Source: a virus. Taken from it: a DNA stretch of 47,400 nucleotides. Under the pieces are notes generated by a model that saw only the letters and a program-made list of their open reading frames with translations, searched no databases and was not told where the DNA came from. Of the stretch, positions 1 to 47,400 are shown piece by piece. Made by a program: the position numbers and the translations under genes. Position 1 is the stretch's first letter; each line of letters starts with the position of its first letter. The stretch is from positions 1 through 47,400 of IMG/VR virus record IMGVR_UViG_3300046727_000402. One strand, given 5' to 3'.

Positions 1-127
1 ACGCTGCCCGATGGGGCGGTCCAACGGCTACCGGTGTACTGCGTGGGCGACTTGGCGGTGTTTCGTCGCGCCGCGATTGAAGATGGACAACCGGCGTTCC
101 AAGAACTCGATCACCAGAAATACAGCC
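1..127. repeat. Terminal overlap, left copy
   Basis: These 127 bases are identical to positions 47274-47400. The large terminase reading frame passes through the join without a shift, so this is the overlap of a circular or circularly permuted molecule rather than two genuine gene copies. The length equals a common maximum assembler k-mer, which makes an assembly overlap more likely than a biological terminal repeat. Confidence 0.95.
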
Positions 128-885
128 TCGAAGGCCTCGCCAAACTCCGCATCCAAGACCCCGAACTCTTCGCCGCCAACTACTTAAATAGTCCCGCCGA
201 CGAAGTGACCGCCACGTTCAAGGACGCGTGGCTCCGCTTCTACGACTGGATGGATGACGAACAGATCCGCTATATCGACCAGGCCGGCAAAACCAAGGTG
301 ATCGCCACCAGCAGCATGGACACGATTGCCCTGGTCGATCCGGGTGGGTTTGGGACCGGCAAAGGACGACAGCGGGCGCGGCCCGCCTTCTGGATCATCG
401 GGAACCAGCAACAGGACGGTCTCTACGTCTTGCTCCATTGCTGGTCCGAGCCGGCGACGTATCTCGCGCTGCAACAGGAAATCGCGACCGCCTGCCAACG
501 CTACCGGGTCCGCAAAGTGTACTGCGAACGCAAAGCCCAGCAGATCGTCTTTATCGACGGGCTCCGTACCCTCTGTCGCCAACAGGGGGTGGACACTATC
601 ATTGAAGAGATCGGGTTCGATAACAATAAGTCGAAAGACGACCGGATCTTAGGGCTCGAAGGCTACTTCCAGCGCGGCCAGATCTATCTCGGACGCACCG
701 CCATGTTCCACGAGTTCCGGACCCAATATGCCCAGTTCCCCAAATCGGCCCGCAACGACTTGTTGGATGCCCTTGCCTGGGGCCCGTCCGTGTGGCCCAA
801 ACTGATGGGCACCATGAAGAACATGCAGCAGCGCCAGCAACAGGAACGCGCGGCCTACTACCAGCGGCGGGGCCAGAGCGTATGA
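1..885 (+). CDS. terL: Large terminase subunit, C-terminal part (continues from 46506 across the circle join)
   Basis: This is the nuclease half of the packaging motor that cuts concatemeric phage DNA and pumps it into the prohead through the portal. Joined to 46506-47400 (minus the 127-bp overlap) it gives one 550-residue protein; codon 257 falls at base 1. RNase H-fold nuclease features are visible: an aspartate in the strand LVDPGG (residue 369 of the joined protein), a glutamate in YCERKAQQ (432) and the NDLLDALAW motif (Asp 509, Asp 512), which fits the usual metal-binding acidic set. The stop overlaps the next start as ATGA, indicating translational coupling. Confidence 0.96.
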   Translation, partial: TLPDGAVQRLPVYCVGDLAVFRRAAIEDGQPAFQELDHQKYSLEGLAKLRIQDPELFAANYLNSPADEVTATFKDAWLRFYDWMDDEQIRYIDQAGKTKVIATSSMDTIALVDPGGFGTGKGRQRARPAFWIIGNQQQDGLYVLLHCWSEPATYLALQQEIATACQRYRVRKVYCERKAQQIVFIDGLRTLCRQQGVDTIIEEIGFDNNKSKDDRILGLEGYFQRGQIYLGRTAMFHEFRTQYAQFPKSARNDLLDALAWGPSVWPKLMGTMKNMQQRQQQERAAYYQRRGQSV

Positions 886-2197: not shown

Positions 2198-4237
2198 ATG
2201 GCCCAGCGAATTATTTGGGGCGCCGGCCGCGAGGACGCCTTTAAAGACTACCTCGATCGCGAGATGCAACAGGCGCTCGCGGCGCGGAGCGCGGTCGAAC
2301 GCACCTGGATTCGCTGGCTCGAACAGTACCGCGCCCCCGCCAATCGGCCGCTCAAGTCGTTTCCGTTCGAAGGTGCGGCCAACTTCGAACTGCCACTCAC
2401 CGCGATCGATGTCGATCAGCTCTACGCCAAGTTCTTCCAGACGATCCACGCGCCGACCAACACCTGGACGCTCGAACCGCTCAATCCCGGCTGGGAAGAC
2501 GCTGCCAAACCGCTGCAAGACTTCCTCGAATGGCTCGATGGCGCCATGCTCCACATGGAACAGGTCAATAAACGCGCCCTCCTCGAACTCGTGAAGCTCG
2601 GCACGGCCATCTACAAAACCGGCTGGCTCTTCGAACGGCGCACCATCAAGACATACGACGATCAGGGGAAGACGCTCCGGGTCGAACGGACGATCAGCAA
2701 ACCCACCGTCGATCACGTCCGGCTCGCCGATTTCCTGATTCCTCCCTATGCCTACGAGATCGACCCCGATCTCCAGGGCGGCGCCCCCTGGATCGCTGAA
2801 CGGTTCCGCCGCGGCATCGATGCCCTGGAGTCCATTGCCGATAGCTCGGAACCCTATCTGCCGAATTACGGCCTGCTGGCGATCCAAAAACTCCGGCAAC
2901 AGATGGAGAACCGCGAAACCGATTATGATGCCGCCATCCAGGGCATGGACTACAACAAAGTCGGCATGGCCGGCCAAACCCTGCCGTTCGATACCAGCAC
3001 CAGCACGGTCCCGGAACCCGGCAAATCCAGCACGTTCTTCGTGGATAACGAGGTCGAGTGGTGGCAAATCCATGCCCGGTTCGCGACCCAAAAAGCCGGT
3101 GGCAGCCAGGATGACATCGTCGTGGAGTATCATCGCCCCACGCGCATGATGCTCCGGGCCATCTATCAGCCCTATCGGCATAGCAAACGGCCCTATGACG
3201 TCGCCCGCTTCTTCCCCGGCGAAGGCTTCTACGGCATCGGCGTCTGTGAACAGAAAGAGATGTTCCAACGGTCCGAATCCGATCTGTTCAATACCATGCA
3301 CGACAACACCCTGCTCTCGAACGCGGTCGGTATCGCCGCCAAACAGGGCAGCAATATCGGTCCCGGTGAGCCGATCTATCCCGGCAAGATCTGGATCACG
3401 GACGGCAACCCGCGCGATGAGCTGATGGCCTTCAATCTCAGCCAACCTTACCAGGGATTGGTCCAGATCCAAGGCATGGTCAACGAACTCGGCAAGCTGC
3501 GCACCGGCATCGGTGATCTCCAGAGCGGCAACATCAATGCGCTTCCGTCCCGGACGCCGGCCACCAGCGTCCAAGCCATGCTCGAAGAAGGCGCCCGCCG
3601 CCCCGATCTGACGCTCACCAATATCCGAGACTGCCTGAGCGGGGTGGGCCTCAAAACGCTGCAAAATGTCCAGCAATACTTGCAGCAACCCGGACTCGGT
3701 GCCGGCGGCGAGATCTACATGGACATCATGGTCAAGGTGCTCGGCCCCGAGGCCGCCGCCCCAGCGCTCCAAGCCTTAGCGCTGAGCCAGGACAGTATCG
3801 AACTTGGGCTCGGGGTGATGCTCACCGCCACGAGTGCCACCGCGAATAAAGAACTCGCCAAACAGAACCTCATGGCCTTGGTGCAGCTCCAAACCCAGAT
3901 CGGGCCGCCGATCTTGCAAGCGCTGACCCAGGCCATGCAGGCCCAGGGCACACCCGTGGGTCAGGCCGCCCTCGATTGGGCGCAGGGCATGGTCTTTCTG
4001 CAGAAACGCGTGCTCGAACAATCTGACATCCGGAACGTCCATGAGCTGGTTCCCACGATTCCCAAAGATCCTGGCCCACCGGCTGGCTTCCCGGCGCCTC
4101 CCCCAAGCCCCTACGGACCCGCCCCTGCCTTTCCACTGCTCGGCGGAGGAGGTGGCCCACCTCAAGGGCCTCCAGGAAGCTCCGGCATGGAAGCACTACC
4201 GAGCCCTGCTGGAGCGGGTGGCCCAGGCGGAATATGA
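2198..4237 (+). CDS. Portal protein
   Basis: 679 residues. It forms the dodecameric ring at one capsid vertex that is the docking site for terminase and the channel for DNA. Recognisable portal features include the N-terminal AVERTWIRWLEQYR helix, a middle region with GEGFYGIGVCEQKEMFQ and the SLFNTM-like segment before a long helical stem, and the conserved GDLQSGNINALPSRTPATSVQAM region near residues 440-465. The length fits portal proteins of short-tailed phages. The last ~60 residues are Pro/Gly-rich (APPPSPYGPAP, GGGGGPP) and overlap another gene in a second frame. The start follows the previous stop directly. Confidence 0.92.
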   Translation: MAQRIIWGAGREDAFKDYLDREMQQALAARSAVERTWIRWLEQYRAPANRPLKSFPFEGAANFELPLTAIDVDQLYAKFFQTIHAPTNTWTLEPLNPGWEDAAKPLQDFLEWLDGAMLHMEQVNKRALLELVKLGTAIYKTGWLFERRTIKTYDDQGKTLRVERTISKPTVDHVRLADFLIPPYAYEIDPDLQGGAPWIAERFRRGIDALESIADSSEPYLPNYGLLAIQKLRQQMENRETDYDAAIQGMDYNKVGMAGQTLPFDTSTSTVPEPGKSSTFFVDNEVEWWQIHARFATQKAGGSQDDIVVEYHRPTRMMLRAIYQPYRHSKRPYDVARFFPGEGFYGIGVCEQKEMFQRSESDLFNTMHDNTLLSNAVGIAAKQGSNIGPGEPIYPGKIWITDGNPRDELMAFNLSQPYQGLVQIQGMVNELGKLRTGIGDLQSGNINALPSRTPATSVQAMLEEGARRPDLTLTNIRDCLSGVGLKTLQNVQQYLQQPGLGAGGEIYMDIMVKVLGPEAAAPALQALALSQDSIELGLGVMLTATSATANKELAKQNLMALVQLQTQIGPPILQALTQAMQAQGTPVGQAALDWAQGMVFLQKRVLEQSDIRNVHELVPTIPKDPGPPAGFPAPPPSPYGPAPAFPLLGGGGGPPQGPPGSSGMEALPSPAGAGGPGGI

Positions 4238-7277: not shown

Positions 7278-7338
7278 TCTATAAGCACTTAGGAGCGTAG
7301 ACTTGCTTGGAGTCGCGGAGTGGAGTAACTTTCACTCC

Positions 7339-7956
7339 ATGAACATACTCAAATGCAAGCGCTGCGGCGGCGATATACAGCCGGGACCGAAGGACACCAA
7401 TCGCACGTTCTGCTCGGTGGACTGCCGGGATACTTGGTGGAACGAGTTTCGGTCCCATGGCGTCACGCGGGATGAGTGCGAACAGAAGAAAAGAATGTCG
7501 TGGACCAAGAATACATCGGTCCCGCATTTGACAGAAACGCAGGCGGTATGGTTGGCAGCGATGATTGACGGTGAAGGGCATATTTCGATCTATCGTGAAC
7601 GCCGACGTGGAAATACTAGCGGATTTCGTTTTAAGCTTGTTGTTGTGGTGACGAACACGAATAAGAATATTGTAGATCGTGTCGTCGAAATCACGCAAGG
7701 ATTTGCTGCCAAAAAGGATAAACGTCCGAAGAATCACAAGCCGTGTTATAGGGCTCAGGTTCATGGGCGGAACAATGAAGTGATCTTACGGGCGATCCGG
7801 CCATATTTGGTCGCGAAAGGTGCCCAAGCAGATAGAGCCCTAGAGTTTTGTCTGGTCATGCAGTCGGCACCAATGCGTGCATCGCTGGTGCATGATATTT
7901 TCGAGCGGCTGCGGTTGGAAGTGAACCAGCTCAACCGACGCGGAGTGGAGGCGTAA
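7339..7956 (+). CDS. LAGLIDADG-type homing endonuclease with zinc-ribbon N-terminus
   Basis: 205 residues from the ATG at 7339 (an in-frame TTG at 7303 would add 12). Residues 4-37 hold CKRC ... FCSVDC, a four-cysteine zinc-binding motif. WLAAMIDGEGHIS follows near residue 75 and is the LAGLIDADG helix with its acidic catalytic residue; only one such motif is evident, implying a dimer. Base composition is AT-richer than the neighbouring structural genes. It lies between the capsid gene and a small virion gene, a typical place for a free-standing mobile endonuclease gene. Confidence 0.85.
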   Translation: MNILKCKRCGGDIQPGPKDTNRTFCSVDCRDTWWNEFRSHGVTRDECEQKKRMSWTKNTSVPHLTETQAVWLAAMIDGEGHISIYRERRRGNTSGFRFKLVVVVTNTNKNIVDRVVEITQGFAAKKDKRPKNHKPCYRAQVHGRNNEVILRAIRPYLVAKGAQADRALEFCLVMQSAPMRASLVHDIFERLRLEVNQLNRRGVEA

Positions 7957-11694: not shown

Positions 11695-12426
11695 ATGGCT
11701 GCGCCCTCCTATACCGCCTCTGGGACCCAGGTCAACGGCACTGGCGCCGTCACGCCCGGCATCCCGGCATCGCATCAAACCAACGATCTGTTTTTTCTCG
11801 TGGTTCAATCGGCGAATCAGGCGGTCACGCTCTCCGATCCCCAATATTTCACGGAGATTGTTGGCTCCCCACTGGGCACAGGCACGGCAGGAGCGATCGG
11901 GGCCAATCGGCTCACCGTCTTTTCATCGGTGGCCAGTACGAGCAACATGTCAGCGCCCACGGTGGCCGATGCCGGGGACCATGTCCTGGCCCGGATCTTC
12001 GGGGTCCGCAGCGCCTATACCCGTGGCACGCCCTATCAGAGTGTGGCCACGAGCATTGTCGCGACCTCGGAATCGGCCGTCACGATCCCGGCCGGCACGA
12101 CGCCCGTCAACAACTGCTTCCTGGCCCTCTTCGTAGCCAATGCGATTGACAATTCGGCGTCGCAACTCAATGGTCAAACGAATGGATCGCTGGACAACCT
12201 GATCGAAGTGTTCGATGCGAATACGAACAATGGGGTCGGTGGGGGCGTCTGCTTCACGCGGGCCAGCCTGAATACGGCCGGGGCGTTCAGCGCGACCACG
12301 GCCGTCCTGGCGGTCGCGTCTCCCCAGATCACCATGGCCCTGGCCGTCTTTCCCACCGATGCCGTATTTTCCTCATCCGCCGCCGCAGGTGGCAGTCATT
12401 TCTTCCGCCGGGGACGGAGGGACTAA
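11695..12426 (+). CDS. Virion protein, first copy of a tandem pair
   Basis: 243 residues from the ATG at 11695, just after an AGCACCTCCT sequence. It is a beta-rich protein with SYTASGTQVNGTG, SHQTNDLFFLVVQSANQ, GANRLTVFSSVAST and CFTRASLNTAGAFS. This domain type is often seen in phage tail and head fibre proteins. The following gene encodes a close paralogue in which nearly every motif recurs. The last 15 residues (AAAGGSHFFRRGRRD) are unique to this copy. A receptor or fibre role is inferred from context. Confidence 0.75.
   Translation: MAAPSYTASGTQVNGTGAVTPGIPASHQTNDLFFLVVQSANQAVTLSDPQYFTEIVGSPLGTGTAGAIGANRLTVFSSVASTSNMSAPTVADAGDHVLARIFGVRSAYTRGTPYQSVATSIVATSESAVTIPAGTTPVNNCFLALFVANAIDNSASQLNGQTNGSLDNLIEVFDANTNNGVGGGVCFTRASLNTAGAFSATTAVLAVASPQITMALAVFPTDAVFSSSAAAGGSHFFRRGRRD
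12043..12125 (+). repeat. 83-bp perfect repeat, first copy
   Basis: This segment is identical base for base to 12778-12860, at the same place in the two paralogous genes (protein region around VATSIVATSESAVTIPAG). The surrounding sequence of the two genes differs at many synonymous sites, so this block has been made uniform recently or is under unusual constraint. Confidence 0.9.
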
Positions 12427-18230: not shown

Positions 18231-18874
18231 TTACTGCTCTCCTCGTCAAAGACGAACGCGCCCGCTACCTGGAACGCGTGCTGCGCCACTGCCTTAGCTT
18301 CTCCGATCAGGTGCTCGTGCTCGATGACGGCTCAACCGATGGCTCGCCAGAACTCGCGCACGAGCTCGGTTGCCAGGTGTTACGCCGCGACGGTGCCAGC
18401 ATGTGGGGCCAGGAAGCGCCGGCTCGCGCCGAGCTGTGGCACTGGGGCGCGGAAGCCGCTGGCGACGGCTGGCTGCTGATCTGCGATGCTGACCAGATTC
18501 TATACGGTGACATCCGTCCGCTGCTCCGCACAACGCAGCATAACGCCTGGGCGTGGTCGCTCTTTGACTGTTGGAACGATGAGCGTTACTACCGCGCCGA
18601 TGGCTTCTGGCAGGGCTACAAGCTAGCGCGGCCATGGCTGTTTAAACCTTCGACACTCACCGAACCGGCGCTCTGGCCAGATCGCGCACTGCATACCGGC
18701 CATTGCCCGGCCAATTTCCCAATGCGTTGCGGGACAGCGCCTTACGACATATATTGGTCGCATCTCGGGTGGCTCAATCCAGCAGATCGGCAGGCAAAGT
18801 ACCAGCGGTATATGACGCAGGCGGACCATCTCACGCCTTTCGAACGAGCCCACGTTGCCTCAATCCTTGATTGA
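18215..18874 (+). CDS. Glycosyltransferase family 2-like protein, start and end disturbed
   Basis: About 219 residues. KTKLVTALLVKDERARYLE, then VLVLDDGSTDGS and LLICDADQIL (DxD metal and nucleotide-sugar site) are classic GT2 elements. There is no ATG, GTG or TTG in the open frame before 18278, yet homology clearly starts near 18218; an ATC at 18215 follows GGAAGAG at a five-base spacing and could be a rare start. The 3' end is overlapped by the endonuclease VII gene. Either this is a decaying gene or it uses an unusual start. Confidence 0.7.
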   Translation: MKTKLVTALLVKDERARYLERVLRHCLSFSDQVLVLDDGSTDGSPELAHELGCQVLRRDGASMWGQEAPARAELWHWGAEAAGDGWLLICDADQILYGDIRPLLRTTQHNAWAWSLFDCWNDERYYRADGFWQGYKLARPWLFKPSTLTEPALWPDRALHTGHCPANFPMRCGTAPYDIYWSHLGWLNPADRQAKYQRYMTQADHLTPFERAHVASILD

Positions 18875-19331
18875 TACGCCGACCAAAAACTGCACTGGTT
18901 GCCATCAAGATCTCCCGTACAAACAATTCAGTCGTCACCATAATACTCTGGATGGATTTCGTCCTAAGTGCCGGCTGTGTCGGACTGAAGAATCCCGTCA
19001 ATATTTTGCCCAAAATCCCCATAAACGCCGCGAGCATTATCGAGTATTAGCCAACCGTCTCGGTCCGTTGGCACAACGTCCTAAGAAACTCTTTGAACGA
19101 TATCGTCTGGAAGTCAGTAGATATGAGGAGATGCTTATAGCCCAAAATGGGCTCTGTGCTATTTGCGAGATGCCTCCGGACAATAATCGTCATCTTCAAG
19201 TAGATCACTGCCATTACACGGGGAAAATTCGTGGCCTACTTTGCATGAAATGCAACAAGGGAATCGGGCAGCTTGACGATGATCCAAGTTTAGTTGCTGC
19301 CGCATTGCGCTATCTCTTGGGTGCTGAATGA
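18855..19331 (+). CDS. Endonuclease VII-family HNH nuclease
   Basis: 158 residues from a TTG; no better start exists. Two N-terminal zinc-knuckle pairs (CTGC near residue 13, CRLC near 39) precede CAICE and the core LQVDHCHYTGKIRGLLCMKC (about 114-133), the recombination endonuclease VII signature with its catalytic His and metal residues. T4 endonuclease VII resolves DNA junctions, but free copies scattered among phage genes usually behave as mobile nucleases. It starts inside the end of a glycosyltransferase gene and is AT-richer than neighbours. Confidence 0.85.
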   Translation: MPQSLIDTPTKNCTGCHQDLPYKQFSRHHNTLDGFRPKCRLCRTEESRQYFAQNPHKRREHYRVLANRLGPLAQRPKKLFERYRLEVSRYEEMLIAQNGLCAICEMPPDNNRHLQVDHCHYTGKIRGLLCMKCNKGIGQLDDDPSLVAAALRYLLGAE

Positions 19332-36786: not shown

Positions 36787-37667
36787 GCGGTCCCCCGCGA
36801 GGCCGCAGAACCCACCGCGATCATCTCGTCCAACAACCGGAACGCCGACTCCTGTAACGCGGCAACGGTGGGGGCGAGCTTTTTACCCGCGGCAGCCCTC
36901 GCGGCAGCCCACGCGGCAGCCCACGCGGCATCCTCCGCGGCAGCCCACGCAGCAGCCCTCGCGGCAGCCCTCGCGGCATCCCCCGCGGCAGCCCTCGCGG
37001 CAGCCCACGCAGCAGCCCTCGCGGCATCCCCCGCGGCAGCCCTCGCGGCATCCCACGCGGCAGCCCACGCGGCATCCCACGCGGCATCCTCCGCGGCAGC
37101 CCACGCGGCACCCCCCGCGGCATCCCCCGCGGTAGCCCCCGCGGCAGCCCTCGCGGCATCCCACGCGGCAGCCCACGCAGCAGCCCTCGCGGCATCCCAC
37201 GCGGCAGCCCTCGCGGCATCCCCCGCGGCAGCCGCGTCCTTCCGCGCGCGGTCCAGCGTTGGTTGCGCGGCGATCGCCGTCGTTGCATCCACGATGCGCG
37301 CCAGTGATTCGAGCGCTTGCGCCTGCTCAGTGAGCCCGGCCAGCCGCAGCCACGCCGGGGTCTGTACCCTTGCCAGCCAGTCGGTGGCCATCCAGGCGCG
37401 CGTCTCGTCGTCGTCGGCGCCGGTGTTGGTCCCGATCAGCCGCGGCGCGTAGTCTTTGAGCCGCTGCCGGGTATCGTCGTCGAGCGCATCATTCCACGCC
37501 CGACCGAAGGCGGCGAGCACCGGAGAAACGCATTTCGGGTGGTCGCTCCACGGCTCCTTGGCCATGTAGCTAACCAGCTCTAGTAGGCACGCGCCCTGCT
37601 CGAAGCTCCGGTGCGCGCCGCTGTCGAGTCGTACCGCGCTTAGGTCCAACACTGCGTGCTCCGTCAT
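36783..37667 (-). CDS. Protein with long Ala/Trp-rich repeat helix
   Basis: 294 residues from ATG at 37667. Residues ~1-145 are an ordinary domain ([25 protein letters not shown] ... [22 protein letters not shown]). Residues ~150-265 consist of AAW/AAR/DAAR units such as [15 protein letters not shown] that should form one long helix with Trp and Arg on repeated faces. The last 25 residues are ordinary again. Proteins of this repeat type occur in phages of many hosts; role unknown. Confidence 0.8.
36892..37240. repeat. Degenerate tandem repeat encoding Ala/Trp/Arg helix
   Basis: About 350 bases built from 12- and 15-base units with gcggcagcc, gcggcatcc and ccacgcggca variants. Because the repeat period is a multiple of three and stop-free, all reading frames stay open here, which produces several spurious overlapping frames. 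Such sequence is prone to slippage, and unit number may vary between phage isolates. Confidence 0.85.
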
Positions 37668-43510: not shown

Positions 43511-44172
43511 CGGAAGCCCAGCCACCTACACCGGTCCCAGCGACGCCGGTCCCGGGACAGAAGATCATGCCGAAGCCGAAGCCGGGCCTGCCGGAGCATC
43601 TGCGAATGGCTCGGGACCGGGTGGTGCGGGAGCGAAAGGCGGTGCGAGCGCAGGCGGAAGTGGGGATGACGGACGCGCAGATCGAGGCGATGTTGGTGTC
43701 GGGACTCCTCCCCCAGTGGCGCAAGGTGGCGGAGTTGCGGGCGAACGGGCAGACGCCGACGCAGATCGCCCGGGTGATGGGGATCACGCGGCCGCATGTG
43801 TATAGCATCATGCGGAAGCCGGAGGTGAAGGCGGCGTTTGGGTATTACCGGAAGAGTTTGCATGAGAAGGTGGTGCAGGTGCAGCATATGGCGGCCAATG
43901 CGTTGCCGCGTGGGGTGGAGAAGACGGTGGCGTTGTTGGAGCAGGACATTGATCCGCGGCATATCATCAACGCGACGGCGGCGTTGGCCAAGATGGCGAT
44001 GATGAGCGAGTCGCGGGGTGATACGGTGGGCCAGAAGATCGTGATTAACCTGACACCGGATGCGGCACGGCAGCTCAGGACGACGGGGCTCGGCGGAGCC
44101 GTGGGCAAGCTGGCCCAGGCCGCCGAGGTGGAGTGGGAGGAGATCGTGGATGCGCCGGAGGAGGAACGGTGA
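43507..44172 (+). CDS. terS: Small terminase subunit (HTH-containing)
   Basis: 221 residues from ATG at 43507. A central helix-turn-helix, AELRANGQTPTQIARVMGITRPHVYSIM (about 79-106), lies before KPEVKAAFGYYRKSL and a long helical C-terminal region ending in an acidic tail (WEEIVDAPEEER). That order and its place upstream of the large terminase fit DNA-recognition small subunits, which bind the packaging site and form rings. The N-terminal 30 residues are Pro-rich. Alternative: another regulator, less likely from context. Confidence 0.7.
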   Translation: MTEAQPPTPVPATPVPGQKIMPKPKPGLPEHLRMARDRVVRERKAVRAQAEVGMTDAQIEAMLVSGLLPQWRKVAELRANGQTPTQIARVMGITRPHVYSIMRKPEVKAAFGYYRKSLHEKVVQVQHMAANALPRGVEKTVALLEQDIDPRHIINATAALAKMAMMSESRGDTVGQKIVINLTPDAARQLRTTGLGGAVGKLAQAAEVEWEEIVDAPEEER

Positions 44173-44327
44173 GCGCAACGATGCCCACGCGGCCACGGTC
44201 ACTCGCGGTTGCCATCGTTGCGTTAGTACGGGACGCCAGGAGAATCCTGCACACGGAGCAACCCGTGGCCCTTGCCGCCCGCCTGGAAGCCATTGAGCAG
44301 TTGGCCGGCGAGCTACTGGACCCATGA
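44169..44327 (+). CDS. Small hypothetical protein
   Basis: 52 residues from a GTG overlapping the terS stop (GTGA). A helical sequence, SLAVAIVALVRDARRIL then ALAARLEAIEQLAGELL. ATGA coupling to the next gene. No function recognised. Confidence 0.65.
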   Translation: MSATMPTRPRSLAVAIVALVRDARRILHTEQPVALAARLEAIEQLAGELLDP

Positions 44328-44572
44328 CCATCCGCTCCCGCCCCACGACGCCCGCGTATGCCGCCGGCTGGGACCGCTGCTTCGGGAAGACGCCTGACCA
44401 GGGCACCGTCGTCTTCCGAGCGTCCTGCCCGGCGCCGGCATGGTATAAACCCGAGGAATGGCGTGGGCACACCGTGACACGGCACCCGGGAGAGTCGGAC
44501 AAGGCGTTCCACCAGCGGAGCACACGAGAACTGCGGGCGGCGATCCTCCGTGATCTGAAACACCAGACGTGA
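44324..44572 (+). CDS. Small hypothetical protein
   Basis: 82 residues, with ATGA coupling ahead and GTGA coupling to the terminase remnant behind. RPTTPAYAAGWDRCFGK at the start resembles the opening of many short phage proteins; aromatic residues cluster in PAWYKPEEWRGH. Originally this gene would have been directly followed by the large terminase. Confidence 0.65.
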   Translation: MTIRSRPTTPAYAAGWDRCFGKTPDQGTVVFRASCPAPAWYKPEEWRGHTVTRHPGESDKAFHQRSTRELRAAILRDLKHQT

Positions 44573-44628
44573 TCCCACCGCCGTCCCTAGAGTTCCAGAC
44601 CGGCGACGCCCAGTGGCCCGCCGCATGA
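44569..44628 (+). pseudogene. Remnant of the large terminase N-terminus
   Basis: A GTG overlapping the previous stop opens a 19-codon frame that contains LEFQTGDAQW, identical to residues 5-14 of the intact large terminase, then stops after PAA. Its stop overlaps the ATG of the methyltransferase gene. The remnant is best explained as the old start of the terminase gene, cut off when the methyltransferase cassette entered; it now could serve to couple translation to the cassette. Confidence 0.85.
44588..44616 (+). repeat. 29-bp direct repeat, left border of the inserted cassette
   Basis: 27 of 29 bases match 46519-46547 (two transitions). The right copy is the beginning of the intact terminase gene. 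The 1,931-bp spacing covers the methyltransferase gene with its nested frames and two Cys-rich genes. Confidence 0.9.
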
Positions 44629-45929
44629 AAATCGGCTCGCTCTTCGCTGGCATCGGTGGCTTCGACCTTGCCGCCCGCTGGATGGGCTGGGAGACGGCCT
44701 GGTTTTCCGAGATCGACCCGTACGCCTCAGCGGTCCTTGCCAAACACTGGCCTGGAGTGCCGAATCACGGCGACATCACACGCATAGATTTTACGCAGGT
44801 TGAGCCGGTTGATCTCCTCTGTGGGGGATTCCCCTGTCAGGACATAAGCAATGCCGGCAAACGCGCGGGCATTACCGGAACACGAAGCGGTCTCTGGACC
44901 CATTTCGCCCGAGCCATTCGCGACTTACGACCCCGCTACGTCGTCGTGGAGAACGTCGCAGCGTTGCTTGGGCGGGGAATGGGACGAGTTCTCGGCGACC
45001 TTTCCGCGCTCGGGTACGATGCGGAATGGTCGGTGTTATCTGCGGCCGATGTCGGCGCTCCTCACCTCCGCGCCCGCATCTGGATTGTGGCCTATCCCAC
45101 GCACGACGGGACTGGATGGGGGCAGCAACTCACGGAACGCCGCCAAGGCGCGGGGATACTGGCCCACGCCGGACGTAGGGGTCTTCAACTTGACCGAATC
45201 CTTCGAGAGTTGGGTCGCACGCTCGGCACGAATGGGGGCGCGACACCAGCACGCACCGTTCCGACCACCGCTGGCGCTCGCAGTGAGGATATGGAGCACG
45301 CCGCGGGCGAGCGACGGGGAGAAGGGCGGACCGAATCAGAGTTTTGGAGCGGGTGGGACGCCCCTACCCGCGCAGGTTGGTGGGACACTGAACCCCCGGT
45401 GGGTCGAGTGGTTGCAAGGCTATCCGATTGGCTGGACCGACTTGACTTAGAGCTATGCCTTAGAGTAGTATGTAGGTATGCCAACCACGCCCATTGCAGT
45501 CCCGCCCAAGCCGTGCGCTTGGTGCGGGAAACTTATGGAGAGGCCGAGGTTTTCCAATGGAGAACTCGAAGCCCCAACCATGTTTGCGCGCCGCAAATTC
45601 TGCTCCCTATCCTGCGCCGCCTCGAAACCAAGTGTCAAGAAAAATTCGATGCACAAGAGGGCCCGGAAACTACGACGGGCATACTGCGAGGCGTGTCTCA
45701 TAACGAAGCGGCTTCAGGCGCACCACCTAGATCAAGATCCCACGAACAATGCGCTGAACAATATCCAGACTCTCTGCAAGAGCTGTCACGATTTCTGGCA
45801 CAATACTGCGCGCAGGCTTGGGCGGAAGGTCGCGGGGCGTATGCCGCAGATCGTGTAAGTCGCCTTAGAGGACTCGGTAACGCCATCGTTCCGGCGTGCG
45901 CGTACCGCATCTTCCAGACCCTAGGCTGA
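44625..45929 (+). CDS. DNA (cytosine-5) methyltransferase, interrupted by an HNH gene in frame
   Basis: 434 residues from ATG 44625. It would transfer methyl groups from SAM to cytosine C5 in a short target and may protect phage DNA from restriction. Motif I LFAGIGGF (6-13), catalytic Cys 71 in GGFPCQD, ENV (109-111), and HLRAR (147-151, the usual QRRxR region) are present. The variable region runs to WWDTEPPVGRVVARLSDWLDRL (near 260-281). Motifs IX/X RLRGLGNAIVP (413-423) come only after ~130 residues encoded by the HNH insertion read in this frame. Whether the enlarged protein still works is doubtful. Confidence 0.85.
   Translation: MKIGSLFAGIGGFDLAARWMGWETAWFSEIDPYASAVLAKHWPGVPNHGDITRIDFTQVEPVDLLCGGFPCQDISNAGKRAGITGTRSGLWTHFARAIRDLRPRYVVVENVAALLGRGMGRVLGDLSALGYDAEWSVLSAADVGAPHLRARIWIVAYPTHDGTGWGQQLTERRQGAGILAHAGRRGLQLDRILRELGRTLGTNGGATPARTVPTTAGARSEDMEHAAGERRGEGRTESEFWSGWDAPTRAGWWDTEPPVGRVVARLSDWLDRLDLELCLRVVCRYANHAHCSPAQAVRLVRETYGEAEVFQWRTRSPNHVCAPQILLPILRRLETKCQEKFDAQEGPETTTGILRGVSHNEAASGAPPRSRSHEQCAEQYPDSLQELSRFLAQYCAQAWAEGRGAYAADRVSRLRGLGNAIVPACAYRIFQTLG
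44851..45450 (+). CDS. Overprinted phage protein in the +1 frame of the methyltransferase gene
   Basis: 199 residues entirely inside the methyltransferase gene. It carries all landmarks of a separate phage protein family: SPEPFATYDPATSSWRTSQ, FSATFPRSGTMRNGRCY, SGLWPIP and YWPTPDV, STPRASDGEKGGPN, and the C-terminal GGTLNPRWVEWLQGYPIGWT. Members of this family often lie beside phage cytosine methyltransferases and have no known function. The frame closes 8 bases before the HNH insertion repeat. That both frames match conserved families over ~600 bases argues for true dual coding. Confidence 0.75.
   Translation: MPANARALPEHEAVSGPISPEPFATYDPATSSWRTSQRCLGGEWDEFSATFPRSGTMRNGRCYLRPMSALLTSAPASGLWPIPRTTGLDGGSNSRNAAKARGYWPTPDVGVFNLTESFESWVARSARMGARHQHAPFRPPLALAVRIWSTPRASDGEKGGPNQSFGAGGTPLPAQVGGTLNPRWVEWLQGYPIGWTDLT
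45458..45870 (+). mobile_element. HNH endonuclease insertion flanked by 8-bp repeats
   Basis: CCTTAGAG at 45458-45465 and 45863-45870 are exactly 405 bases (135 codons) apart and lie between the methyltransferase's DRL and RLRGLGN codons. Removing one repeat unit restores a continuous methyltransferase frame with CLRGLGNAIVP. Only 12 bases separate the left repeat from the HNH start codon and 4 bases separate its stop from the right repeat, leaving no room for a self-splicing intron. Confidence 0.75.
45478..45858 (+). CDS. HNH endonuclease
   Basis: 126 residues. An N-terminal zinc pair set CAWC (13-16) and CSLSC (42-46) leads to CEAC (70-73) and the catalytic HNH core LQAHHLDQDPTNNALNN with His 82/83 and Asn 91, followed by LCKSCHDFWH with metal His 104. 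HNH enzymes nick or cut DNA; this one lies in a different frame within the methyltransferase gene and is probably a free-standing mobile endonuclease that spreads by cutting uninterrupted copies of its site. Confidence 0.9.
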   Translation: MPTTPIAVPPKPCAWCGKLMERPRFSNGELEAPTMFARRKFCSLSCAASKPSVKKNSMHKRARKLRRAYCEACLITKRLQAHHLDQDPTNNALNNIQTLCKSCHDFWHNTARRLGRKVAGRMPQIV

Positions 45930-46273
45930 TGTCATCCACGACCTCCCAGCCCTCGTACTGTCCCGATTGTCCTGGGTATCCCATTTGTCGGGGTTCCTGT
46001 TTTATCCCGAAACCAGAAGGGCCGGAGACTGGCAGAAGCTGGAAAGAACGCATGATCCTAGTGGCGCAAGAGAAGTATTTTGGTGTCCACCGTTCCGCCG
46101 TCTACTCTCCCGAGAAGTTCGAGCGCGTGGATTCGTCCTGTACCTGTAATCCCTGTTGTGCGGATGCGGGTCTCCCCTATACGCCGATCGGCGCCGTGCC
46201 GGCGCGCCCGTGCCAAAGCTGTTTGCCTGGGTATGATGGGAAGGATCGCTGCATCATGGGGTGCTGGGGATGA
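45929..46273 (+). CDS. Cys-rich putative zinc protein
   Basis: 114 residues; its ATG overlaps the methyltransferase stop (TGATG). CPDCPGYPICRGSC at the N-terminus and CTCNPCCADAG, CQSCLPGYDGKDRCIMGC at the C-terminus give about 13 cysteines. The centre has a short helix (SWKERMILVAQEKYFG). Part of the inserted cassette. Function not known; several structural zinc sites are likely. Confidence 0.65.
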   Translation: MSSTTSQPSYCPDCPGYPICRGSCFIPKPEGPETGRSWKERMILVAQEKYFGVHRSAVYSPEKFERVDSSCTCNPCCADAGLPYTPIGAVPARPCQSCLPGYDGKDRCIMGCWG

Positions 46274-46509
46274 CTGGCGCCCCGATTCATGTGCTGCCCA
46301 CGCGGAATATGGCAGCCCACCGCGAAGGGACGCAGGCGGCGTGCTGGTGTGGGGCCGTGGGTTACATCCTCTGTCCTGAGTGTGGGGGAGCGAAAGAAGG
46401 CTGCTGGTGCTGTCGGCGTGGGAAGGACGATGGCACCAACGGCATGATGCCTGTTGTGCCGGGCGATCACCCCGCCATCATCGTTCATGAAGATGTGGAC
46501 CCCGCATGA
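46270..46509 (+). CDS. Small zinc-ribbon-like protein
   Basis: 79 residues, ATGA-coupled to the Cys-rich gene before it and to the large terminase after it. CWCGAVGYILCPECGGAKEGCWCC contains six cysteines in CxC/CxxC pairs (residues ~25-48). The C-terminal tail is acidic (HPAIIVHEDVDPA). Possibly nucleic-acid binding; unknown. Confidence 0.65.
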   Translation: MTGAPIHVLPTRNMAAHREGTQAACWCGAVGYILCPECGGAKEGCWCCRRGKDDGTNGMMPVVPGDHPAIIVHEDVDPA

Positions 46510-47400
46510 CGGACACCTTAGAGTTTCAAACCGGCGACGCCCAGTGGAAAGCCCTTCGCGAGAAGGGCCTGAGTGATCTCTTCTTCTTCGGCAGCGTGAT
46601 CTTAGGGTACGGCGAGCTGGTGCCCATGCGGGAAAGCGCGCATCGCCTGCTGTGCCGGTTCGTGGAGCGGAGCACGGGCGTCCCCGTCTTAGATCAAGCC
46701 TGGGTCCGCAAAGTCGAGATGCCGCGCGGCACCGGCAAGACGACGACGATCACGCAAGCCTACATCATTCAACGCCTCTGCCAAGACCCGAATCTCTCGA
46801 TCCTGCTCTGTAACGAGAAAGAAGCCAACGCCAAGGCGATGCTCACGGCGATCAAGTCCCAGTTCATGACCAATGAGCTATTCCGGAAACTCTATCCCGA
46901 AGTCATTCCCGACGACTTCCACCTCCAACTCTGGTCTGCCACCCAGATTAACTGCAAACGCACCACCGGCCGCAAAGAACCAAGCATTTTAGTGATCGGC
47001 GAAGGCGGTACCGTCACCGGCATGCATCCCGATGAGATCTTTGTCGATGACCTCATCTCCCGCGAGTTGATGGAGAGCATGCGGAGCGGCAGCGTCGCTG
47101 ACCTCATCGGCCAGATCAACCGCTGGATTCATCAACTCGTCCCGTTGTTGTCCGGGCATCCCAAACGCTGTATCACCTTCATCGGGACCCGCTGGTGGCA
47201 CAACGACTGCTACGAACACATCGAGGAGAGCTTCGGCTATGGCCACGACCCCCAACGCTTCCTGCTCAAATGCACGCTGCCCGATGGGGCGGTCCAACGG
47301 CTACCGGTGTACTGCGTGGGCGACTTGGCGGTGTTTCGTCGCGCCGCGATTGAAGATGGACAACCGGCGTTCCAAGAACTCGATCACCAGAAATACAGCC
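46506..47400 (+). CDS. terL: Large terminase subunit, N-terminal part (continues at base 1/128)
   Basis: Residues 1-298 of a 550-residue packaging motor. The ATPase half is complete: Walker A PRGTGKT (73-79), Walker B EIFVDD (177-182) and the coupling motif FIGTRW (225-230). The nuclease half is at 128-885. The ATG overlaps the preceding stop (ATGA). Residues 5-14 also occur, as a broken copy, ahead of the methyltransferase gene at 44587. Confidence 0.97.
   Translation, partial: MTDTLEFQTGDAQWKALREKGLSDLFFFGSVILGYGELVPMRESAHRLLCRFVERSTGVPVLDQAWVRKVEMPRGTGKTTTITQAYIIQRLCQDPNLSILLCNEKEANAKAMLTAIKSQFMTNELFRKLYPEVIPDDFHLQLWSATQINCKRTTGRKEPSILVIGEGGTVTGMHPDEIFVDDLISRELMESMRSGSVADLIGQINRWIHQLVPLLSGHPKRCITFIGTRWWHNDCYEHIEESFGYGHDPQRFLLKCTLPDGAVQRLPVYCVGDLAVFRRAAIEDGQPAFQELDHQKYS
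46519..46547 (+). repeat. 29-bp direct repeat, right border of the inserted cassette
   Basis: Matches 44588-44616 at 27 of 29 positions; here it is part of the functional terminase start. It begins inside a CCTTAGAG octamer (46516-46523), the same octamer that borders the HNH insertion. Confidence 0.9.
47274..47400. repeat. Terminal overlap, right copy
   Basis: Identical to positions 1-127; joins the two ends of the circle inside the large terminase gene. Confidence 0.95.

Follow-up and report, generated by a model that had tools for sequence, protein, structure and literature searches.

The methylase block and its overprinted subunits

The window analysed here is the whole of one 47,400-nucleotide (nt) virus record, IMGVR_UViG_3300046727_000402, in which a block of genes lies directly before the intact large terminase gene (TerL) and is bordered by a direct repeat of the TerL start. 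The block carries the gene of a C5-cytosine methyltransferase, alpha (44625..45929, + strand, 434 amino acids (aa)), a second subunit, beta, overprinted in its +1 frame (44851..45450, + strand, 199 aa), an HNH endonuclease gene that lies wholly inside alpha (45478..45858, + strand, 126 aa) and two small cysteine-rich open reading frames (ORFs). A first-pass annotation of the window had placed these genes correctly within a 1,931-bp unit; only its view of the HNH gene as standing beside the methylase needs correction.

The alpha protein matches PF00145 (E 7e-44), phrog_363 matches both of its ends, and its frame is open through the HNH gene. It carries motifs I-VIII and X, among them FAGIGG, GGFPCQDIS (motif IV, with the catalytic PCQ), ENV, RARIWIV and, at the very end, GLGNAIVP (motif X). 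Beta matches phrog_1008 (E 5e-29), and a motif IX-like sequence, LNPRWVEWLQGYPIGWTDL (assigned by eye), is found in this +1 frame and is absent from alpha. The overprinted alpha/beta pair is present in nearly all methylase relatives. In M.EcoHK31I only motif IX resides on the smaller polypeptide, while the large one holds motifs I-VIII and X (PMC3404938); the division in the window is the same, with the small frame overprinted in the large gene. As judged by motifs and profile matches, the block is an EcoHK31I-like split C5-methylase and, by homology, alpha and beta together would probably methylate phage DNA against host restriction. Unlike M.EcoHK31I, the window has an HNH gene within the large gene, where it follows the end of beta and precedes motif X. 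In the AlphaFold2 model of alpha, residues 1-160 and motif X are confidently predicted, and residues ~164-415 mostly are not.

The HNH gene within the alpha frame

The HNH protein carries two CxxC pairs, is modelled by AlphaFold2 with a mean pLDDT of 92.6 and is encoded in the same frame as beta. In relatives lacking the HNH gene, alpha reads ...EPDVGRVAHGVPARVDRLRGLGNAVVP and beta reads ...WVEWLMGFPLGWTDL over the same bases. In the window beta ends, the HNH gene begins a few codons further on in beta's frame, and alpha stays open throughout and then reads RVSRLRGLGNAIVP. The gene is bounded by an 18-nt repeat (14/18 identical), the left copy at 45457..45474 and the right copy at 45862..45879 (both + strand), the latter at the start of the motif X coding sequence; the spacing between the two is 405 nt, which is 3 x 135.

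This arrangement recurs. Clear HNH relatives were defined as profile-search matches with bits over 60, and in the 33 distinct loci so obtained, window included, the +2 frame of the HNH gene is stop-free over the HNH core in every one (33/33); a 34th nested case is seen in a Gemmatimonadaceae contig (L210 among our numbered loci). The enclosing ORF ends in GN[ACG], that is motif X, in all 33 loci and in L210. For five of the 33 (L130, L131, L132, L139 and L145) the enclosing ORF is not, or is only in part, the PCQ-bearing frame but a beta-type one; in these same five, motif X lies in frame with beta-type sequence and not, or only partly, with the frame of motifs I-VIII.

It could be supposed that the host frame is free of stops passively, as a by-product of the amino acid composition of the HNH protein and of G+C content. 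The +2 frame is indeed the easier one to keep open, the +1 frame being unable to be stop-free at all in many of these HNH genes, and in the GC-rich locus L126 the probability of an open frame, P(open), as obtained by exact synonymous recoding, reaches 0.29. However, P(open) is mostly 1e-8 to 0.07 per locus with all 33 frames open (summed log10 P = -102), and for the AT-rich Staphylococcus phage it is 4e-8; furthermore, 58 of the 62 weaker HNH matches have stops in their +2 frame, where 0.33 open frames would be expected, and motif X closes the same frame every time. A passive origin can hardly be credited, and it is clear that the openness of the host frame in the nested cases is non-random.

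Of the four weaker matches whose +2 frame is open, three likewise sit in enzyme genes. At L163:909-3779 the HNH gene (2776-3180) occupies the +2 frame of a UDG-exonuclease-family A DNA polymerase ORF of 957 codons; DNA_pol_A matches two stretches of this ORF, and the HNH gene lies directly before its AKAENFGFLYG motif. At L161:2550-3740 and L172:2607-3767 the HNH gene is in the +2 frame of N6/N4-methylase ORFs, directly before the DPPYG motif.

Of the two frames, it is that of the HNH gene which is constrained, because differences between related HNH pairs gather at the third codon position (0.26/0.23/0.47 at positions 1/2/3). Identity in the alpha frame over the HNH gene is well below HNH identity in most pairs. 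Conservation of the alpha segment at the protein level was considered and set aside: its mean z is 0.88, but that of the unused frame is 0.84, and since the unused frame scores alike, the excess similarity of the segment is what the relatedness of the codons would give and only its openness is supported. The segment of alpha opposite the HNH gene would thus fit a tolerated linker, as far as the models go. The HNH protein itself has a conserved catalytic core, with H82 H83, N91, N95, H104 and four Cys pairs invariant in 27 sequences, and it matches PHROG HNH families. Solved-structure and fold searches recovered a generic HNH core only, with PacI and I-HmuI among the weak matches and function left undecided.

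There is no sign of a splicing device: at gathering scores, no Rfam intron family was detected in the window or in 18 of the loci (the scan of the window returned no match to any family), and the layout of an intein is not that seen here, the HNH gene being in a different frame from its host.

Probable mobility of the HNH gene and proposed read-through of its host

HNH-bearing methylases are scattered among those without the gene, with 10 changes on the methylase tree, at least three of them forced by well-supported branches; by tree path the window methylase is closest to the HNH-less L020, L021 and L003. The distances among HNH genes correlate only weakly with those among the methylases (Mantel r 0.28, p 0.0008). 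The target segment (RVDRL in alpha, GWTDL in beta) recurs on both sides of the insert; a crude 18-nt test detects such target repeats at p ~0.05 or below in nine of 31 loci, and inspection by eye in about 20, the pair in the window being that at 45457/45862. In most loci the gene is inserted after the end of beta and before motif X; the exceptions are L126 and L097, in which motif IX follows the HNH gene. Because of this scattered presence, the weak correlation of distances, the flanking target repeats and the lack of intron RNA, the sequences argue with good probability for a homing-type gene rather than a restriction subunit.

Alternatively, the nested HNH gene could encode the restriction partner of the methylase, the two forming a compact restriction-modification system in one gene. 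HNH restriction enzymes exist, the close relatives of this HNH protein were found only inside methylases, and the correlation of distances, weak as it is, is significant. We nevertheless consider such a partnership unlikely; only three of the 80 best methylase loci hold the HNH gene, its presence on the methylase tree is scattered, its distant kin lie in a DNA polymerase gene and in N6/N4-methylase genes, and the insertion often repeats target sequence.

The HNH gene, most likely a homing-type mobile gene, would have been inserted in frame just before the motif X codons. The alpha frame is open across it, and alpha may therefore be read through the HNH gene as an extra ~135 residues so as to reach motif X without splicing; the gene would persist in alpha because its +2 frame is stop-free. 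More generally, we would put at about even the proposal that certain homing-type HNH genes, as a class, reside in enzyme genes thanks to a lack of stops in the host frame, the host protein being read through them. Such a class would comprise those in C5-methylases and, for the more distant HNH genes, those in N6/N4-methylases and in a family A DNA polymerase gene.

Free-standing phage homing endonucleases are small nuclease genes found sporadically in enzyme genes, the host function presumably being kept (PMC2988022 and work cited there). The HNH gene of the window resembles them in its insertion in an enzyme gene and in its scattered distribution; unlike them, its host alpha is neither split nor spliced and forms one open frame by way of the open +2 frame of the HNH gene. 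With the homing genes of group I introns and inteins it shares the placement of a nuclease gene within another gene, close to a conserved motif, but it differs from the former in having no intron family and from an intein-borne nuclease in lying in another frame than its host. Open-licence papers were searched for HNH or homing genes that are nested or overprinted, and no description of the arrangement was found. If true, read-through nesting would be a further route, besides introns, inteins and gene fission, by which a nuclease gene comes to lie in a coding sequence. Mobile nuclease genes could then enter enzyme genes without a splicing device, provided that the host protein really is read through, and the foreign coding sequence would immediately be adopted, in a different frame, as an added segment of protein.

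Annotation software, faced with two overlapping frames, tends to retain only one of them, and the nested arrangement would thus be readily overlooked. In the record of the Komagataeibacter phage phiKX1 (L096, LC644975) the beta frame is annotated and the alpha ORF and full HNH gene are not; in that of the Staphylococcus phage CUB-EPI_14 (L097, ON325435) the methylase is annotated and the HNH gene is not. Since these two cultured phages carry the nested set, the arrangement is open to experiment.

The repeated terminase start and the TerS-TerL boundary

The repeat that borders the block is 32 nt long. Copy 1 (CCCTAGAGTTCCAGACCGGCGACGCCCAGTGG, 44585..44616, + strand) and copy 2 (CCTTAGAGTTTCAAACCGGCGACGCCCAGTGG, 46516..46547, + strand), the latter in the intact gene, are identical at 29/32 positions and spaced by 1,931 nt; the border repeat of the first-pass annotation, given there as 27/29, is thus real, being the same repeat over a shorter stretch. 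It is exceptional genome-wide, where the next best match to the stretch is 21/32; direct repeats equally strong occur at only two other places in the genome, in an Ala tract (36.9-37.2 kb) and, as a pair at 11926/12661, in two neighbouring ORFs that resemble each other. When the 30-mer of the TerL start was compared to its own upstream DNA, the best match was 27/30 in the window and 18-20/30 in 15 related loci. Copy 2 encodes residues 5-14 of TerL, LEFQTGDAQW (the intact protein reads MTDTLEFQTGDAQWKALR), and copy 1 lies inside a 19-codon frame, VIPPPSLEFQTGDAQWPAA, that runs from GTG at 44569 to TGA at 44628 (44569..44628, + strand), so that the earlier observation of this motif in a tiny frame before the methylase holds.

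The 19-codon frame is one link of a gene chain without a gap. This begins with a TerS-like gene (43525..44172, 215 aa, a helix-turn-helix protein with a weak match to phrog_2538, E 2e-4, and placed before TerL as in relatives) and continues with an ORF of 52 aa without a family match (g52, 44169..44327), one of 82 aa without relatives in phages (g82, 44324..44572), the 19-codon frame, the methylase, the Cys-rich ORFs Cys114 (45929..46273, 114 aa, no convincing relative) and Cys79 (46270..46509, 79 aa, a weak match to phrog_2864 only) and TerL (46506..47400 for its 5' part, continuing into window 1-885; 550 aa in total; phrog_38, E 8e-31), all on the + strand. It was proposed at first that the genes are joined by stop/start overlaps, and indeed every junction from TerS to TerL is such an overlap of 1-4 nt: GTGA for TerS/g52 and g82/19-codon frame, ATGA for g52/g82, frame/methylase, Cys114/Cys79 and Cys79/TerL, and TGATG for methylase/Cys114.

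A direct search for close TerL relatives among viral contigs found none, and the family was gathered instead via searches with the portal and capsid proteins and a TerL profile. The relatives, mostly contig fragments, are 46-68% identical over the N-terminal part of TerL (aligned set). Most family TerL proteins start with variants of L[ES]FxxGDAxW, for example LEFTPGDAQW (L086), LEFTQGDATW (L111) and LEFVAGDAAW (L088). Immediately upstream of TerL, L086 (the nearest relative), L088, L089, L091, L109 and L111 have a TerS-like gene; in L086 the GTG of TerL overlaps the TerS stop by GTGA, the same type of junction as that of copy 1 with the stop of the 82-aa gene. None of the 15 related loci has a further TerL start upstream of TerL, no C5-methylase turned up in 12 related records, themselves mostly fragments, and the 82-aa gene had no relative, the relatives carrying TerS and not this gene directly before TerL. 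The order that the first-pass annotation expected as ancestral, the 82-aa gene followed at once by TerL, was thus not seen among the relatives. No relative of the Cys-rich genes was convincing; L128, which came up in the searches with the 82-aa and Cys-rich genes, looks like a chance match within a structural gene. Other genes found before TerL are a Methyltransf_24 gene (L100:5357-6004), two small ORFs (L104:3321-3855) and a phosphoesterase with a small ORF (L108:4082-5352). Since relatives hold differing, unrelated genes there, the TerS-TerL boundary accepts genes and has the look of a hot spot for insertion. In L086 TerS is joined to TerL with no block in between; the relatives, at 46-68% identity, have diverged too far to provide an empty site that matches.

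Because its motif is that of the family TerL N-terminus, TerS joins TerL directly in L086 and 15 relatives have no second copy, comparison supports the 19-codon frame being a leftover or duplicated TerL start that no longer leads into TerL. The first-pass annotation named relatives keeping the short LEFQTGDAQW frame without the cassette as evidence that would speak against this origin, and no such relative was found. As to the origin of the remnant, the three differences between the copies are all transitions and all synonymous in LEFQTGDAQW, in whose codons 10/30 of the possible transitions are synonymous. By simple arithmetic, the chance of three synonymous changes out of three is ~0.04 if all took place in the freed copy 1 and ~0.13 if both copies changed with copy 2 constrained. 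Because all three are synonymous, a recombination that joined, around the cassette, two TerL alleles which had diverged as working genes is weakly favoured over target duplication.

In the latter, which the first-pass annotation proposed, the two TerL starts would stem from a target-site duplication made in a single insertion, and the copies would then have diverged where they lie. The direct repeat borders both sides of the block, insertion with long target duplications of variable length has been reported for restriction-modification systems (PMC3874152), and the nested HNH gene, too, often has target sequence on both sides. The resemblance to such insertions lies in a methylase block with a direct repeat of its target gene at the borders; unlike them, the repeat here is 32 nt and not ~100, the differences between its copies are all synonymous, and the block carries a methylase but no proven restriction enzyme. 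Furthermore, a freed copy should gather replacement changes, yet none is seen, and no transposase gene was recognised in the block. Insertion with target duplication is the less likely course; the part of the earlier proposal that stands is that copy 1 is a TerL start.

It is also conceivable that the 19-codon frame is a selected coupling leader which passes ribosomes from the 82-aa gene to the methylase. The GTGA and ATGA overlaps at its two ends and the lack of any replacement change in 10 codons are consistent with this, but any short in-frame remnant would look the same, and no relative has the frame by which its conservation could be judged; we regard selection for coupling as rather improbable. 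Lastly, the window being a metagenome-derived record, the 32-nt repeat might mark a misjoin in the contig. Reading frames and overlaps pass cleanly through both junctions, however. The ends of the window overlap by exactly 127 nt (1-127 = 47274-47400), and 127 is a typical largest k of metagenome assemblers; a 32-nt repeat alone would therefore not cause a misjoin, which makes an artefact of this kind very unlikely. The end overlap denotes that the assembly, of 47,273 nt, is circular or permuted, and is not evidence for a biological terminal repeat.

The preferred account of the locus, then, begins with the entry at the TerS-TerL boundary of a gene block comprising the alpha/beta methylase, the nested HNH gene and the two small Cys-rich genes. 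The old TerL start would have stayed as the 19-codon frame upstream of the block, TerL now starting at the second copy downstream, with the junction probably formed by recombination between two TerL alleles. Since all the genes form a chain of stop/start overlaps, the leftover start may still bridge translation from the 82-aa gene to the methylase. Taken as a whole (a cassette at this boundary, a TerL remnant and a homing-type HNH gene tolerated by read-through and not by splicing), the account seems to us fairly probable. Several points weigh against it: the alpha segment opposite the HNH gene is conserved only in staying open, and for most of it no confident fold is predicted; HNH enzymes of the homing and of the restriction type are not told apart by the fold search; the correlation of HNH and methylase distances, although weak, is significant and indicates some co-inheritance; the case for two TerL alleles comes from just three nucleotide differences; and none of the relatives, fragmentary and diverged as they mostly are, is close enough to show the step before insertion. 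A smaller point that follows from the TerL remnant is that a gene block can enter the packaging operon with TerL and the chain of overlaps left intact.

Elsewhere in the window, a mobile-nuclease-like gene with a weak LAGLIDADG match follows the capsid gene (7303-7956), and an endonuclease VII-type gene, also mobile-nuclease-like, overlaps its neighbours at 18855-19331. The Ala tract mentioned above is a long Ala-rich repeat at 36880-37200 (reverse strand), within an ORF of 326 aa.

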